DNA from: Pseudomonas oryzihabitans
Lineage (GTDB): Bacteria; Pseudomonadota; Gammaproteobacteria; Pseudomonadales; Pseudomonadaceae
Direction: 5' to 3'
Assembly: GCF_001518815.1 (NCBI RefSeq)
Contig: NZ_CP013987.1
Span: forward strand, 661,001 to 725,000
DNA length: 64,000 bases
Part shown: positions 54,986 through 59,971 of the stretch, one piece after another
Layout: each line of letters begins with the position of its first letter
Position numbering within the stretch: the first letter of the stretch is position 1
The notes under the pieces: generated by a model
Database searches by the model: none
The model's input: only the letters and a program-made list of their open reading frames with translations
What the model was told of the DNA's origin: nothing
Made by a program: the position numbers and the translations under genes

Positions 54986-55111
54986 TCAGCCCCTGCTTGC
55001 GTCGGCGCACCCGGCAGGCCTTGGCGTACCGGATGAAGGAGTGGCGGTGACCAGGTCAGACCGCCAGTGCTGCGCGGCATTCTACCTGCTTGCTCGACAT
55101 CTGGGAGTCCC

Positions 55112-56146
55112 ATGGATATCACCGAATTGCTGGCCTTTTCCGCGCGGCAAGGCGCCTCCGACCTGCACCTGTCCGCCGGCCTGCCGCCGATGATCCGCGT
55201 CGACGGCGACGTGCGCCGCATCAACCTGCCGGCCTTCGAGCACAAGCAGGTGCACGCGCTGATCTACGACATCATGAACGACAAGCAGCGCAAGGACTTC
55301 GAGGAATTCCTGGAGACCGACTTCTCCTTCGAGGTGCCGGGCGTGGCGCGCTTCCGGGTCAATGCCTTCAATCAGAATCGTGGCGCTGGCGCGGTGTTCC
55401 GGACCATCCCTTCCAAGGTGCTGAGCATGGAAGAGCTGGGCATGGGCGAGGTGTTCAAGAAGATCACCGACGTGCCGCGCGGGCTGGTGCTGGTGACCGG
55501 ACCGACCGGTTCGGGCAAGTCCACCACCCTCGCGGCCATGCTCGACTACCTCAACAACACCAAGTACCACCACATCCTCACCATCGAGGATCCCATCGAG
55601 TTCGTCCACGAGTCCAAGAAGTGCCTGGTCAACCAGCGCGAGGTGCATCGCGACACCCTGGGCTTTTCCGAAGCCCTGCGCTCGGCGCTGCGCGAGGACC
55701 CGGACATCATCCTGGTGGGCGAGCTGCGCGACCTGGAAACCATCCGCCTGGCACTGACCGCGGCCGAGACCGGGCACCTGGTGTTCGGCACTCTGCACAC
55801 CACCTCGGCGGCCAAGACCATCGATCGGGTGGTGGACGTCTTTCCGGCGGAAGAGAAATCCATGGTGCGTTCCATGTTGTCCGAATCCCTGCAGGCGGTG
55901 GTCTCCCAGACCCTGCTCAAGAAGGTCGGCGGCGGTCGGGTAGCCGCTCACGAGATCATGATCGGCACCCCGGCCATCCGTAACCTGATCCGCGAGGACA
56001 AGGTGGCGCAGATGTATTCCTCGATCCAGACCGGTGGCGGCCTGGGCATGCAGACCCTGGACATGTGCCTCAAGGCGCTCCTGGCCAAGGGGCTGATCAG
56101 CCGCGACGCGGCCCGCGAGAAGGCCAAGACGCCGGAGAACTTCTGA
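55112..56146 (+). CDS. pilT: Type IV pilus retraction ATPase PilT
   Basis: The 344-residue hexameric ATPase depolymerises pili to drive twitching. It starts MDITELLAFSARQGASDLHL. It has Walker A TGPTGSGKSTT (about 130-140), the Asp box ILTIEDPIEFVH, Walker B PDIILVGELRD and the PilT-specific AIRNLIREDK near the C-terminus. The ATG at 55112 matches the conserved N-terminus; a start 15 codons upstream is unlikely. Its stop overlaps the pilU start (TGATG). Confidence 0.97.
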   Translation: MDITELLAFSARQGASDLHLSAGLPPMIRVDGDVRRINLPAFEHKQVHALIYDIMNDKQRKDFEEFLETDFSFEVPGVARFRVNAFNQNRGAGAVFRTIPSKVLSMEELGMGEVFKKITDVPRGLVLVTGPTGSGKSTTLAAMLDYLNNTKYHHILTIEDPIEFVHESKKCLVNQREVHRDTLGFSEALRSALREDPDIILVGELRDLETIRLALTAAETGHLVFGTLHTTSAAKTIDRVVDVFPAEEKSMVRSMLSESLQAVVSQTLLKKVGGGRVAAHEIMIGTPAIRNLIREDKVAQMYSSIQTGGGLGMQTLDMCLKALLAKGLISRDAAREKAKTPENF

Positions 56147-57288
56147 TGGATTTCGACAGGTTCCTGCAGCTGATGGTGGACAAGGGGGCGTCCGACCTCT
56201 TCATCACCACCGGCGTGCCCCCTTCGATGAAGATCAATGGGCGCATGACGCCGGTCACCAAGGATTCGCTGTCTCCCGAGCAGTGCCGGGCCCTGGTGCT
56301 GGGGGTGATGACCGACGAGCAGCGGCAGGAATTCCAGCAGAAGCGCGAGTGCAACTTCGCCATCAGCGCCCGGGGCATCGGTCGCTTCCGGGTCAGTGCC
56401 TTCTACCAGCGCAATCTGGTGGGCATGGTGCTGCGCCGCATCGAGGTCAACATTCCCACGGTCGAGCAGCTGCGCCTGCCGGAGATCATCAAGAAGCTGG
56501 CCATGACCAAGCGCGGCCTGGTGATCTTCGTTGGCGCCACCGGCACCGGCAAGTCCACCTCGCTGGCGGCCATGATCGGCCATCGCAACAAGAACTCGGC
56601 GGGGCACATCATCTCCATCGAGGATCCCATCGAGTACATCCACCAGCACCAGGGCTGCATCGTCACCCAGCGCGAGGTAGGGATCGACACCGAGTCCTTC
56701 GAGGTGGCGCTGAAGAACACCCTGCGCCAGGCGCCTGACGTGATCATGATCGGCGAGATCCGCAGTCGGGACACCATGGAGCATGCTCTGGCCTTCGCCG
56801 AGACCGGCCACCTGTGCCTGGCCACCCTGCACGCCAACAACGCCAACCAGGCGCTGGATCGCATCATCCACTTCTTTCCGGCCGATCGACACAGCCAGAC
56901 CTGGATGGACCTGTCGCTCAACCTCAAGGGCATCGTCGCCCAGCAGCTGGTGCCGACCATCGATGGTCAGGGGCGCCGCGCGGTGATTGAGGTGCTGCTC
57001 AACACCCCGCTGGCCACCGACCTGATCCGCAAGGGCGAGGTGCACGAACTCAAGGCGCTGATGAAGAAGTCCGGCGAACTGGGCATGCAGACCTTCGACC
57101 AGTCGCTCTACAGCCTCTATCGCGACGGCGAGATCAGCTACGAAGCGGCCCTGGCCCACGCCGATTCCGCCAACGACCTGCGGCTGATGATCAAGCTGGG
57201 GTCGGAGACGGATGCCGATCACCTCAATCAGACCACCCGCAATCTCTCGGTGGACATGGGCGACGACCCACCCAGGCGCTTCCGCTAG
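56146..57288 (+). CDS. pilU: Type IV pilus retraction ATPase PilU
   Basis: The 380-residue paralogue of PilT boosts retraction force. It has MDFDRFLQLMVDKGASDLF, Walker A VGATGTGKSTS, IISIEDPIEYIH, and Walker B PDVIMIGEIRS. The C-terminus is longer than PilT's, ending DDPPRRFR. The gene's TAG stop overlaps the stop of the convergent glycosylase gene within a CTAG palindrome, leaving no room for an intergenic terminator. Confidence 0.96.
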   Translation: MDFDRFLQLMVDKGASDLFITTGVPPSMKINGRMTPVTKDSLSPEQCRALVLGVMTDEQRQEFQQKRECNFAISARGIGRFRVSAFYQRNLVGMVLRRIEVNIPTVEQLRLPEIIKKLAMTKRGLVIFVGATGTGKSTSLAAMIGHRNKNSAGHIISIEDPIEYIHQHQGCIVTQREVGIDTESFEVALKNTLRQAPDVIMIGEIRSRDTMEHALAFAETGHLCLATLHANNANQALDRIIHFFPADRHSQTWMDLSLNLKGIVAQQLVPTIDGQGRRAVIEVLLNTPLATDLIRKGEVHELKALMKKSGELGMQTFDQSLYSLYRDGEISYEAALAHADSANDLRLMIKLGSETDADHLNQTTRNLSVDMGDDPPRRFR

Positions 57289-58727
57289 CTCTCGCCGTCG
57301 GCTGCCAGGGTCCTGGCCTCGCGCAGGGCAGCGACCAGCGCCTGGCGTGCCTGCTCCTGCTGCCCTGCGTCCGGGGTGCGCAGGATGTAGGACGGATGAT
57401 AGGTGGCGATGATCCAGCGCTCGTCCAGCCGCAGGGGCCGACCCATGAATTGCGCGAGGCCCCGTGGCTTGCGCTTGAGCAGGGCTTCCAGGGCCGTCGA
57501 CCCCAGAGCCACCACTACCGTCGGCTGGATGTCGCGCAGCTCCTGCTCCAGCCAGTAGCGGCAGGGGGCGATCTCCGGTCCTGGGGTGACGTGCTTGCGT
57601 CTCCGGCCCTGGGGAATCCACTTGAAGTGCTTGACCGCATTGGTGAGGAATACCTCGCTGCGGTCGAGACCTGCCTCGGCCAGTGCCGCCATCAGCACCT
57701 GCCCGGCCGGCCCGACGAAGGGGCGACCCGCCAGGTCTTCCTGGTCGCCGGGCTGTTCTCCCAGCAGCAGGATGCGCGCCGTGCGTGGGCCTTCGCCGGC
57801 CACCGGCTGGGTGGCCTTCTCCCAGAGTTCGCAGCGGCGGCATTCGTCGAGGGTGGTGGGCAGCGGTCGATCCGGCTGGGCGCGTTCCGCGGCGATCAAT
57901 ACCTCGCGACCGCCCTGACGACCCACGGCCTCGGCCTGGGCCAGGCGCTGGGCGCCGGCTCGGGCCTCGCTAAGCAGTGCCGGGATAAGCGGCCCTTCCG
58001 GCAGATCCTTCCAGAAGCGCGCCGGCATGTTTCCCCTCAGGGTGCGCGGATTGGCCCGTGCTGGATTGAAGGTGCTGCGGTAATAGGCGCGCCAGAGTTC
58101 GTCACCAGCGTTGCGGTCATCGTCCTCCGGCGTCTGGCGGGCCAGTTGCTGCAGCTCGGCGGGGCAGGGCTCCACCAGTTGCAGCGCCTGGCCATCCCAG
58201 AGCGCGGCGGCCTCCGGGGTCGCGATCAGCCAGCTGCTATTGCCCATGCGGTCGCAGAAATGCGGCGCCGCCAGGGCCAGGACGTCGTGGGCGGGCTGGT
58301 GCCAGGCCACCCAGGCCGGCGGACCGGCGCTTTCCGCACGCGGGCGGAATCTGAGGAAGGCATGCACGTGGTGGATCTCGCGGCGGATCGCCTTGACCCG
58401 ACGCTGTAGTTCGCTGCCGTCTTCATCGCCGGCCAGCATGGCCGCGCGCTCGCCCTGGGCGACCCGCCAGAGCACCTGATAGAGCAGTGCCCAGCGATCG
58501 TCACTGCGAAAGCAGGCGGCGTAGGTCAGGGCCTCGGCCAGTTGCGGCGGGATGCGCACGGCGCTACTGGGTGGCGTCGGCACCGCCTCGACCGGTTCGT
58601 CGAACAGGTCGCCCAGTCCACGGCTCTCCTGCCAGCTCACCAGAGCTGGTGCGATACCGGCCTGAAGCAGCCGGCGTGCCTCCTGGCGCCAGCCGGCGAA
58701 GGTGCCGTCGAAATCGACCCTGTGCAT
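57285..58727 (-). CDS. DUF4130 / UdgX-type uracil-DNA glycosylase fusion
   Basis: The 480-residue protein has two parts. Residues about 1-240 match the DUF4130 family linked to radical-SAM/UDG loci (marker EIHHVHAFLRFRP at 117-129). Residues about 288-475 form a uracil-DNA glycosylase of family-4/UdgX type. Its motif A is GEQPGDQED (323-331). An extra loop QGRRRKHVTPG (373-383) corresponds to the UdgX KRRIH loop, with His379 at the position that bonds covalently to uracil-site DNA in Mycobacterium UdgX. The final motif is HPSYILR (444-450). Cys296, Cys299 and Cys389 can bind an iron-sulfur cluster; the usual fourth ligand position holds His367 (VKHFKW). The loop differs from canonical KRRIH at its fourth residue. 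It follows the radical-SAM gene with zero spacing. Confidence 0.88.
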   Translation of the reverse strand: MHRVDFDGTFAGWRQEARRLLQAGIAPALVSWQESRGLGDLFDEPVEAVPTPPSSAVRIPPQLAEALTYAACFRSDDRWALLYQVLWRVAQGERAAMLAGDEDGSELQRRVKAIRREIHHVHAFLRFRPRAESAGPPAWVAWHQPAHDVLALAAPHFCDRMGNSSWLIATPEAAALWDGQALQLVEPCPAELQQLARQTPEDDDRNAGDELWRAYYRSTFNPARANPRTLRGNMPARFWKDLPEGPLIPALLSEARAGAQRLAQAEAVGRQGGREVLIAAERAQPDRPLPTTLDECRRCELWEKATQPVAGEGPRTARILLLGEQPGDQEDLAGRPFVGPAGQVLMAALAEAGLDRSEVFLTNAVKHFKWIPQGRRRKHVTPGPEIAPCRYWLEQELRDIQPTVVVALGSTALEALLKRKPRGLAQFMGRPLRLDERWIIATYHPSYILRTPDAGQQEQARQALVAALREARTLAADGES

Positions 58728-59939
58728 CTAGAGCAGGGCGAGCTGGGCGGGCGGTTCGGCCAGCTGCCGACGCAGGTCGAGTGATTCGGCCAGCCGTGGT
58801 TGCGGCCGGTAGTCCTGGGTGATGATGAAGGGGCGAGCCTTCTCCACGCTGCATTTCAGGCGGATCAGATCGGCGTAGCGGATGCGCCGTTCGCGTCTGA
58901 GTTCCACCAGGCGCTTGGCCGAGAGCACACCGATACCGGGTACCCGGGCGATCAGTGCCTGGTCGGCGCGATTGAGATCCAGCGGGAAGATGGCGCGATT
59001 GTGCAGCGCCCAGGCGAGTTTGGGATCAACGTCCAGCGGTAGCTGGCCGTCTTCGGTGGGCAGCTCTTCCGCCTGGAAGCCGTAGCCGCGCATGAGGAAG
59101 TCGGCCTGGTACAGGCGGTGCTCACGCAGCAGGGGCGGCGGTTGCAGTGGCACCGTGCCCGGGCTTTCCGGAATCGGACTGAAGGCCGAGTAGTAAACGC
59201 GCTTCAAGCGATAGGCGCCATAGAGTGTCTGGGCGGTATCGAGAATGGTGCGGTCGTCGGTGGCGTCGGCGCCCACGATCATCTGGGTGCTCTGGCCGGC
59301 CGGTGCGAAGCGCGGCGCCTTGGCTTCGGCCTCGGCTTCCTCCAGGCCCAGGCGGATGTTGCCCATGGTCTTGCGGATGCTGCTGCCGTTCTTTTCCGGC
59401 GCCAGCTTGATCAGGCTGCTCTCGGTGGGCAGCTCGATGTTCACCGACAAACGATCGGCATAGAGACCGGCCTGGGCAATGATCTCGGGATCGGCGTCGG
59501 GAATGGTCTTGAGATGGATGTAGCCGCGGAACTGGTGCTGTTCGCGCAGCAGCTGGGCCACCCGGGTCATCTGCTCCATGGTGTAGTTGGAGGAGCGGAT
59601 GATGCCGGAGCTGAGGAACAGCCCGCTGATGACGTTGCGCCGATAGAAATCGAGGGTCAGCTGCACCACTTCCTCGGGCGTGAAGCGCGCCCGCGGGACG
59701 TTGCTGCTGCGGCGATTGACGCAGTACTGGCAGTCGTACTGGCAGAAGTTGGTCAGCAGCACCTTGAGCAGCGCCACGCAGCGCCCGTCGGGGGTGAAGC
59801 TGTGACAGATGCCCATGCCGTCGGTCGAGCCCAGGCCGTCCTTGCCCTTCGAGCTGCGCTTGGGCGCACCGCTGCTGGCGCAGGATACGTCGTACTTGGC
59901 GGCATCGGCGAGAATGATCAGCTTGTCAGCGAGCTCCAT
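58728..59939 (-). CDS. Radical-SAM protein linked to uracil-DNA glycosylase, with helix-hairpin-helix
   Basis: The 403-residue protein has the radical-SAM motif CQYDCQYC (Cys66, 70, 73) after LLKVLLTNF. Three further cysteines lie near the N-terminus (20, 45, 54), and a C-terminal helix-hairpin-helix covers about 322-350 (LNRADQALIARVPGIGVLSA). It matches the family described as putative DNA modification/repair radical SAM protein that travels with UDG and DUF4130 genes. The HhH implies DNA contact; the radical chemistry and substrate are unknown. ATG 59939 has AGGAG six bases upstream. A LexA-type box (59952-59971) lies just before that, so SOS control of this gene and the fused glycosylase is expected. 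Confidence 0.9.
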   Translation of the reverse strand: MELADKLIILADAAKYDVSCASSGAPKRSSKGKDGLGSTDGMGICHSFTPDGRCVALLKVLLTNFCQYDCQYCVNRRSSNVPRARFTPEEVVQLTLDFYRRNVISGLFLSSGIIRSSNYTMEQMTRVAQLLREQHQFRGYIHLKTIPDADPEIIAQAGLYADRLSVNIELPTESSLIKLAPEKNGSSIRKTMGNIRLGLEEAEAEAKAPRFAPAGQSTQMIVGADATDDRTILDTAQTLYGAYRLKRVYYSAFSPIPESPGTVPLQPPPLLREHRLYQADFLMRGYGFQAEELPTEDGQLPLDVDPKLAWALHNRAIFPLDLNRADQALIARVPGIGVLSAKRLVELRRERRIRYADLIRLKCSVEKARPFIITQDYRPQPRLAESLDLRRQLAEPPAQLALL

Positions 59940-59951
59940 CGAGATCTCCTG

Positions 59952-59971
59952 TACTGTGATTGCATACAGTA
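59952..59971 (-). promoter_or_regulatory. LexA/SOS box upstream of the radical-SAM-UDG operon
   Basis: TACTGTGATTGCATACAGTA contains CTG-N10-CAG with perfectly complementary outer arms TACTGT/ACAGTA, the consensus form for gammaproteobacterial LexA. It sits 13 bases before the ATG at 59939. On the minus strand, TTGAAC about 18 bases upstream of the box could be the -35, so LexA would block the -10. Confidence 0.85.

Follow-up and report, generated by a model that had tools for sequence, protein, structure and literature searches.

A probable SOS-type operon pairing a radical-SAM protein with DUF4130 and an optional UdgX domain in Pseudomonas oryzihabitans

Here we report a two-gene operon of Pseudomonas oryzihabitans that encodes a radical S-adenosylmethionine (radical-SAM) protein and a fusion of the DUF4130 and UdgX domains, and that is preceded by a LexA-type operator conserved in its relatives. 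The operon lies in a stretch of 64,000 nucleotides (the window; NCBI RefSeq assembly GCF_001518815.1, contig NZ_CP013987.1, positions 661,001 to 725,000 of the forward strand). Judged from these sequences, the locus is very probably an SOS-type two-gene operon that is switched on by DNA damage. We consider it rather probable that the radical-SAM protein and DUF4130 are an SOS-induced pair for the radical repair of DNA lesions, with UdgX as an optional covalent trap for uracil.

According to this proposal, LexA would repress the operon until its cleavage after damage, whereupon both proteins would be made. The radical-SAM protein would bind DNA through its C-terminal helix-hairpin-helix and probably has a second Fe-S cluster, placed on three cysteines of the N-terminal part; it would generate a 5'-deoxyadenosyl radical and, together with DUF4130, repair or tailor a damaged DNA base. 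The fused UdgX would act as an accessory, excising uracil and holding the abasic site covalently through H379, a capture that may shield the site or couple it to the same repair event. Radical chemistry and covalent uracil capture are predicted here from the families to which the proteins belong, DNA is the presumed substrate because of the helix-hairpin-helix, the regulation and the UdgX fusion, and what the pair does, and to which lesion, is a guess.

All features of the operon are on the minus strand. The radical-SAM gene (58728-59939; 403 aa) encodes a member of TIGR03916 (rSAM_link_UDG), matched by hmmscan over residues 3-396 at 544.1 bits against a cut-off of 343.5. The second gene (57285-58727; 480 aa), delimited by profile matches and direct reading, joins a DUF4130/TIGR03915 domain at residues 5-244 (57996-58715; 199.8 bits, cut-off 112) to a UdgX domain at residues 247-469 (57321-57989; TIGR03914, 236 bits, cut-off 190). 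Both domains are over their cut-offs. The TAG stop codon of the first gene runs straight into the ATG of the next, which confirms the gapless arrangement described in the initial annotation.

LexA-type operators across lineages

The 20-mer TACTGTATGCAATCACAGTA, which reads from 59971 to 59952 on the minus strand, has the perfect 6-bp inverted arms (TACTGT/ACAGTA) first ascribed to it and was taken as a LexA-type (SOS) operator from direct reading and from its conservation in relatives. Twelve bases, and not 13 as first stated, separate it from the radical-SAM ATG at 59939; they include AGGAG (59946-59950), adjoining the operator, which is probably the ribosome-binding site. By itself TACTGTATGCAATCACAGTA is weak evidence and not improbable by chance, with one occurrence of CTGT-N8-ACAG in the window against 0.6 expected. 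The stricter LexA consensus CTGTATATANNNNTACAG had no match in the window at up to three mismatches, and we searched instead with the arms CTG-N10-CAG and CTGT-N8-ACAG.

The weight of this site comes from its conservation in relatives and from the other such sites in the genome. CTGTAT-N6-ACAG occurs in this genome at 12 places, as against one match of a reversed control pattern. One of these places precedes a LexA-like open reading frame (ORF) and another a UmuD-like ORF, both recognized by eye; five have no ORF by a simple rule, and the ORFs of the others were not identified.

For the comparison with relatives we assembled 93 loci, namely the window's genome, 12 congeneric genomes and 80 named Pseudomonadaceae and Burkholderiales records; these 80 ranked highest among at least 592 relatives and are therefore close kin. 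The initial annotation had reasoned that orthologous operons without a conserved CTG-N10-CAG would speak against LexA control; the site was found upstream of the radical-SAM gene in 93/93 loci, its first base 25-36 nt before the start, where resampling the final 120 nt with a Markov model gave it at a mean of 2.8 loci and a maximum of 9.

Evenly sampled Pseudomonadota genomes (n=299) extend this observation beyond close kin. The sample holds 53 genomes with TIGR03916 over cut-off, 18 of the same class as P. oryzihabitans and 35 outside it; gene starts were estimated by script here, as in the scans of lone-UdgX, DUF4130-only and Bacillota-like loci described below. Upstream of the radical-SAM gene, CTG-N10-CAG is present in 16 of the 18 same-class genomes (15 from the main scan, plus G237, whose box fell outside the interval of that scan) and in 1 of the 35 others, and GAAC-N7-GAAC or GTTC-N7-GTTC is present in all 35 of the latter. 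Resample means were 0.7 for CTG-N10-CAG (n=18) and 0.2 for the GAAC/GTTC-N7 repeats (n=35), and a coding-region control gave 1/18 and 0/35, respectively. The GAAC/GTTC-N7 direct repeat is the alphaproteobacterial LexA motif, and the 35 outside-class genomes are taken as Alphaproteobacteria, judged from this operator. One operon with a LexA motif at an equal position that differs by lineage is hard to explain other than by LexA control, and we regard the predicted LexA/SOS control of the operon, as put forward in the initial annotation, as backed by strong comparative evidence.

Such control is less new than was first held, as it has already been predicted in print for other groups. We take COG4277 to be the radical-SAM family TIGR03916. 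In Bacteroidetes, the SOS network as predicted contains a COG1573-COG4277 operon, described as uracil-DNA glycosylase (UDG) repair, whose SOS control is cited also for Verrucomicrobia and Alphaproteobacteria (PMC8565304; this and the other papers cited are represented by the part of their text that was available). In Clostridium acetobutylicum the radical-SAM pair CAC3343-CAC3344 is under a predicted LexA site (PMC3828012). The Streptomyces LexA regulon includes an unspecified radical-SAM protein, vnz_31145 (PMC9380542), and a gene of the family's name is upregulated in a Fusobacterium coculture (value 1.585; PMC9848294). The LexA and SOS literature available to us, with subscription papers on the Pseudomonas SOS regulon outside the search, yielded no description of this Pseudomonas operon.

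The constant radical-SAM and DUF4130 pair

The coupling of the two genes suggested by the initial annotation extends across the sample: in 53/53 genomes TIGR03915 lies downstream of TIGR03916 on the same contig and strand. The two matches are at most 163 bases apart in 45 of them and 207-3,075 bases apart in 8, with intervening genes in G253 and G241. TIGR03915 is over cut-off in 3 of the 246 genomes that have no TIGR03916 over cut-off (Fisher p about 1e-55), and genomic pairing with TIGR03915 is part of the TIGR03916 family description. LexA-type sites also occur at 3/3 loci with DUF4130 but without the radical-SAM gene.

The radical-SAM cluster motif C66-x3-C70-x2-C73 (59721-59744) is present in 66/66 aligned proteins. 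Three further cysteines precede it (codons within 59778-59882), of which C45 and C54 are conserved in 66/66 and C20 in 65/66; all three are present in each of the 16 proteins of a second alignment and, by eye, in the Acinetobacter protein and in 7/7 proteins from Bacillota-like loci (one Acetoanaerobium and six faecal contigs labelled phage, for which "Bacillota-like" is a guess). Three extra cysteines ahead of such a motif often signal an auxiliary cluster, as in TYW1, lipoyl synthase and MiaB, and their conservation suggests a second, auxiliary Fe-S cluster in this family. A distant radical-SAM paralogue on Gemmatirosa kalamazoonensis plasmid 1 (L219) is without the three N-terminal cysteines, and its locus has no DUF4130 or UDG match; this one case was not used.

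A segment resembling a helix-hairpin-helix, matched by Pfam HHH_3, spans residues 320-350 (58890-58982). HHH_3 is matched at E<=0.01 by 13 of 16 aligned family proteins, the window protein included, and the best match of the radical-SAM profile among PDB sequences is a ComEA-related protein, at a weak E of 0.012. Foldseek matches of the weak AlphaFold2 model are general radical-SAM barrels, with human LIAS at the top, followed by HydE and viperins.

The partner domain is modelled better, with a mean predicted local distance difference test score (pLDDT) of 87 in AlphaFold2. Its best fold matches are PAP phosphatase and RecJ/DHH-type phosphoesterases, with E values from 0.06 and template modelling (TM) scores by query length of at most 0.32 among the best 50 listed; at these values we did not adopt DUF4130 as a DHH enzyme. 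Searches of a viral structure library at E<=0.001 and of PDB sequences at E<=10 found no relative, and since no structural match is confident, none indicates a substrate. Nine residues are invariant in 15 aligned DUF4130 proteins (H119, R126, R160, W166, W212, Y215, R224, W239 and E244), which suggests a catalytic or nucleic-acid-binding site.

A gene resembling hemerythrins (HHE, by eye) stands between the radical-SAM and DUF4130 genes at three loci, L220, L221 and L222, from three genomes of one family. A similar gene lies downstream of the radical-SAM gene in L202, an IMG/VR contig, and beside a lone UdgX gene in L195, from a fourth genome of the same family as L220-L222. Its product could serve as protection for a radical-SAM enzyme that is sensitive to oxygen.

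If it directly reversed a photoproduct of UV or desiccation, like spore photoproduct lyase (SplB), the radical-SAM protein would join another radical-SAM enzyme linked to SOS; "SplB-like" radical-SAM genes and UDGs have been described as neighbours of DUF4130 (PMC3765255), and a gene of the TIGR03916 family's name is upregulated on desiccation in Acinetobacter Tol 5 (PMC13130816). Nonetheless, the available text of PMC8565304 keeps SplB (COG1533) and COG4277 separate, subject to the family identity assumed for COG4277 above. Nor was there any SplB model among the family matches of the operon proteins up to E 0.1, in a library whose content for SplB was unchecked, and we regard reversal of this kind as unlikely.

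UdgX as a variable addition

The nearest solved chains to the UdgX domain of the window are UdgX entries such as 6ajo and 6ail (E about 3e-44). It keeps E324 and Q325 of GEQPG, N363, H379, H444 and R450, and residues equivalent to these six have been proposed as crucial for UdgX (PMC10359453). H379 lies in the R-loop, RRRKH (57591-57605), and corresponds to the cross-linking H109 in an alignment with Mycobacterium smegmatis UdgX. Among the 36 sample loci with a UDG domain, the His, Asn and motif-B residues are kept in 36/36 and the E and Q in 35/36. From these conserved residues we infer that the domain would bond covalently to DNA after excising uracil.

UdgX is over cut-off in 52 sample genomes, comprising 40 of the 53 with the radical-SAM gene and 12 without it over cut-off. 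The genome of Caulobacter vibrioides, used as a control, matches all three families (TIGR03916, TIGR03915 and TIGR03914) at E<=0.001. The pair is present with no UdgX over cut-off in the remaining 13, six of which (G035, G086, G202, G249, G273 and G298) have no UdgX match at E<=0.001 and seven (G058, G094, G111, G195, G208, G237 and G310) weaker matches only. A UDG domain is present at 28 of the 80 named loci and absent from 51, all of these with the operator; one locus (L048) is not judgeable since its contig ends. No LexA-type site was found at lone UdgX genes (0/12, three of them second copies in genomes with the radical-SAM gene). At L187 (genome G083), a UdgX gene is accompanied by a DUF4130 relic, with a LexA-type repeat upstream and no radical-SAM protein over cut-off. 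In the Bacillota-like loci, DUF4130 is present in 6/7 and UDG in 0/7. The constant unit of the operon looks like the radical-SAM protein with DUF4130, and the fused UdgX like an optional extra.

These counts sit poorly with the model of the initial annotation, in which UdgX, as an essential component, first recognizes uracil or another damaged base and is followed at that site by the radical enzyme, even though 38 of the 40 radical-SAM genomes with UdgX encode it in a single open frame with DUF4130 and the residues for covalent chemistry are kept. Because pairs exist that are free of UdgX, and because operators track DUF4130 and not lone UdgX, UdgX is unlikely to be the obligatory lesion reader, and we hold this order of events to be quite improbable.

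A further role for the pair might be to free the covalent complex of UdgX with DNA. UdgX bonds covalently to the abasic sugar, with resolution left to RecA pathways or proteases, and its physiological role is called largely unknown by the authors (PMC10359453); our literature search gave no paper treating UdgX together with a radical-SAM protein. With the pair kept in genomes that have no UdgX, and with 12 sample genomes that have UdgX and no radical-SAM protein over cut-off, we judge such a resolving function very improbable.

The distribution of UdgX points to repeated change. On a quick tree of 139 radical-SAM proteins, UDG presence changes seven times by parsimony, at least four of these on starred branches; L048 and L200 were omitted (contig ends), L112, L114 and L117 were set manually to UDG-positive, as their UDG match lies beyond the fetched locus, and L016, whose UDG domain is degenerate, was scored positive. 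Where Pseudomonas has no UdgX, its DUF4130 protein carries a short terminal tail resembling, by eye, the linker of the fused form. In Pseudomonas sp. ML96 (L016), the second gene of the operon encodes a UDG domain without GEQPG and without the R-loop histidine, apparently decaying beside the radical-SAM and DUF4130 genes. Together, the tail and the degenerate domain suggest that UdgX has been lost.

Weight of the evidence and comparison with known systems

Several observations weigh against an SOS-induced radical repair pair as outlined here. Two of the 18 same-class genomes, G086 and G106, are without CTG-N10-CAG; the G086 radical-SAM protein is similar, by eye, to that of Acinetobacter, a genus from which LexA is absent (PMC7273328). 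A GAAC-N4-GTTC site with at most one mismatch is found in only three of the seven Bacillota-like loci (resample mean 0.24), one of which, L228, has two exact sites, and in none of the other four. The three DUF4130-only loci with operators come from one genus and are not independent, and the quick tree gives no direction, loss or gain, for the changes in UdgX. The AlphaFold2 model of the radical-SAM protein has a pLDDT of 67 overall and 30-49 across the cysteine region, so that conservation is what argues for the second cluster. The C-terminal helix-hairpin-helix of the initial annotation holds for most of the aligned family proteins, but the window protein scores 22.3 bits with HHH_3, under the Pfam cut-off of 27. 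The DUF4130 model has no PDB structure match at E<=0.001, and our literature search, in the texts available, turned up no measurement of activity, of LexA binding or of induction for the operon.

A function in DNA modification or anti-phage defence, as opposed to repair, seems to us the least probable of the alternatives. The NCBI family name reads "DNA modification/repair", and the weak radical-SAM model has fold matches to viperins, which are antiviral radical-SAM enzymes; yet neither operon protein matches a PADLOC anti-phage model at E<=0.01, LexA-type control is found in and beyond the class, and gene order and strand are constant in 53/53 genomes.

Relatives are encoded in 10 phage-labelled records and 2 IMG/VR contigs. 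In CAKLQH020000003.1 (L217; named Acinetobacter phage MD-2021a), the only annotated record examined, the radical-SAM gene has glyQ and glyS as neighbours and the record looks chromosomal around it. We did not read this carriage as a sign of a phage system. The catalogued viral contig L202 (IMGVR_UViG_3300006947_003566) has GAACGTATATCGAAC upstream of its radical-SAM gene and may be host flank. Among 72,556 plasmid records, 158 have relatives, 142 of them non-mobilizable. In the window itself, two ORFs resembling type-IV pilus ATPases (pilT/pilU type, by eye) occupy 55067-57288 on the plus strand, and the last 4 bases of the second are shared with the end of the UdgX gene.

Repair by an SOS-induced radical-SAM and DUF4130 pair is the reading that we favour. 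A broader proposal, which we put forward only tentatively, is that the pair may represent an unrecognized class of SOS-induced repair, in which a radical-SAM enzyme that carries a second Fe-S cluster on three cysteines would, with a DUF4130 protein of new fold, chemically revert or tailor a damaged DNA base. The pair would be kept in several lineages under their own LexA motifs and joined in some by UdgX as a covalent uracil trap. Few DNA-repair radical enzymes are known, and TIGR03916 is common, at 53 of the 299 sampled Pseudomonadota genomes. The separation of a core from an optional UdgX tells which two proteins to purify together and offers UdgX-free species as natural controls, it calls the printed uracil base-excision reading of the operon into question, and the conserved cysteines provide a direct spectroscopic test of the second cluster.

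As the initial annotation had it, the radical-SAM partner is without an assigned reaction in the literature found, in the texts available, and the same is true of its pair with DUF4130. The window protein is a full member of TIGR03916, with a whole-length match, the same partner and the same gene order, and shows no family-level difference; the three extra conserved cysteines are not mentioned in the part of the published text that was available. The COG1573-COG4277 operon is likewise a two-gene UDG operon with a LexA-type site, but in the available text it is printed as a uracil base-excision system, whereas here UDG is often absent and DUF4130 constant. CAC3343-CAC3344, likewise with a predicted LexA site, combines a radical-SAM repair protein and a gene whose function is unknown, the second gene being DUF4130 by inference only, as far as the text available goes.

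Among characterized enzymes, M. smegmatis UdgX (6ail, 6ajo) shares GEQPG (motif A), the Asn, the nucleophilic R-loop His and motif B (HPS..R) with its Arg, but the window domain is part of a DUF4130 fusion and is encoded beside a radical-SAM gene in an SOS-type operon. SplB, too, is a radical-SAM DNA repair enzyme that is SOS-linked in print, although it is listed apart from COG4277 in the available text of PMC8565304, and no SplB match was seen here. TYW1, lipoyl synthase and MiaB have layouts with three cysteines before CX3CX2C like that of the radical-SAM protein described here, yet none of the three is among its 22 PDB sequence matches at E<=1.

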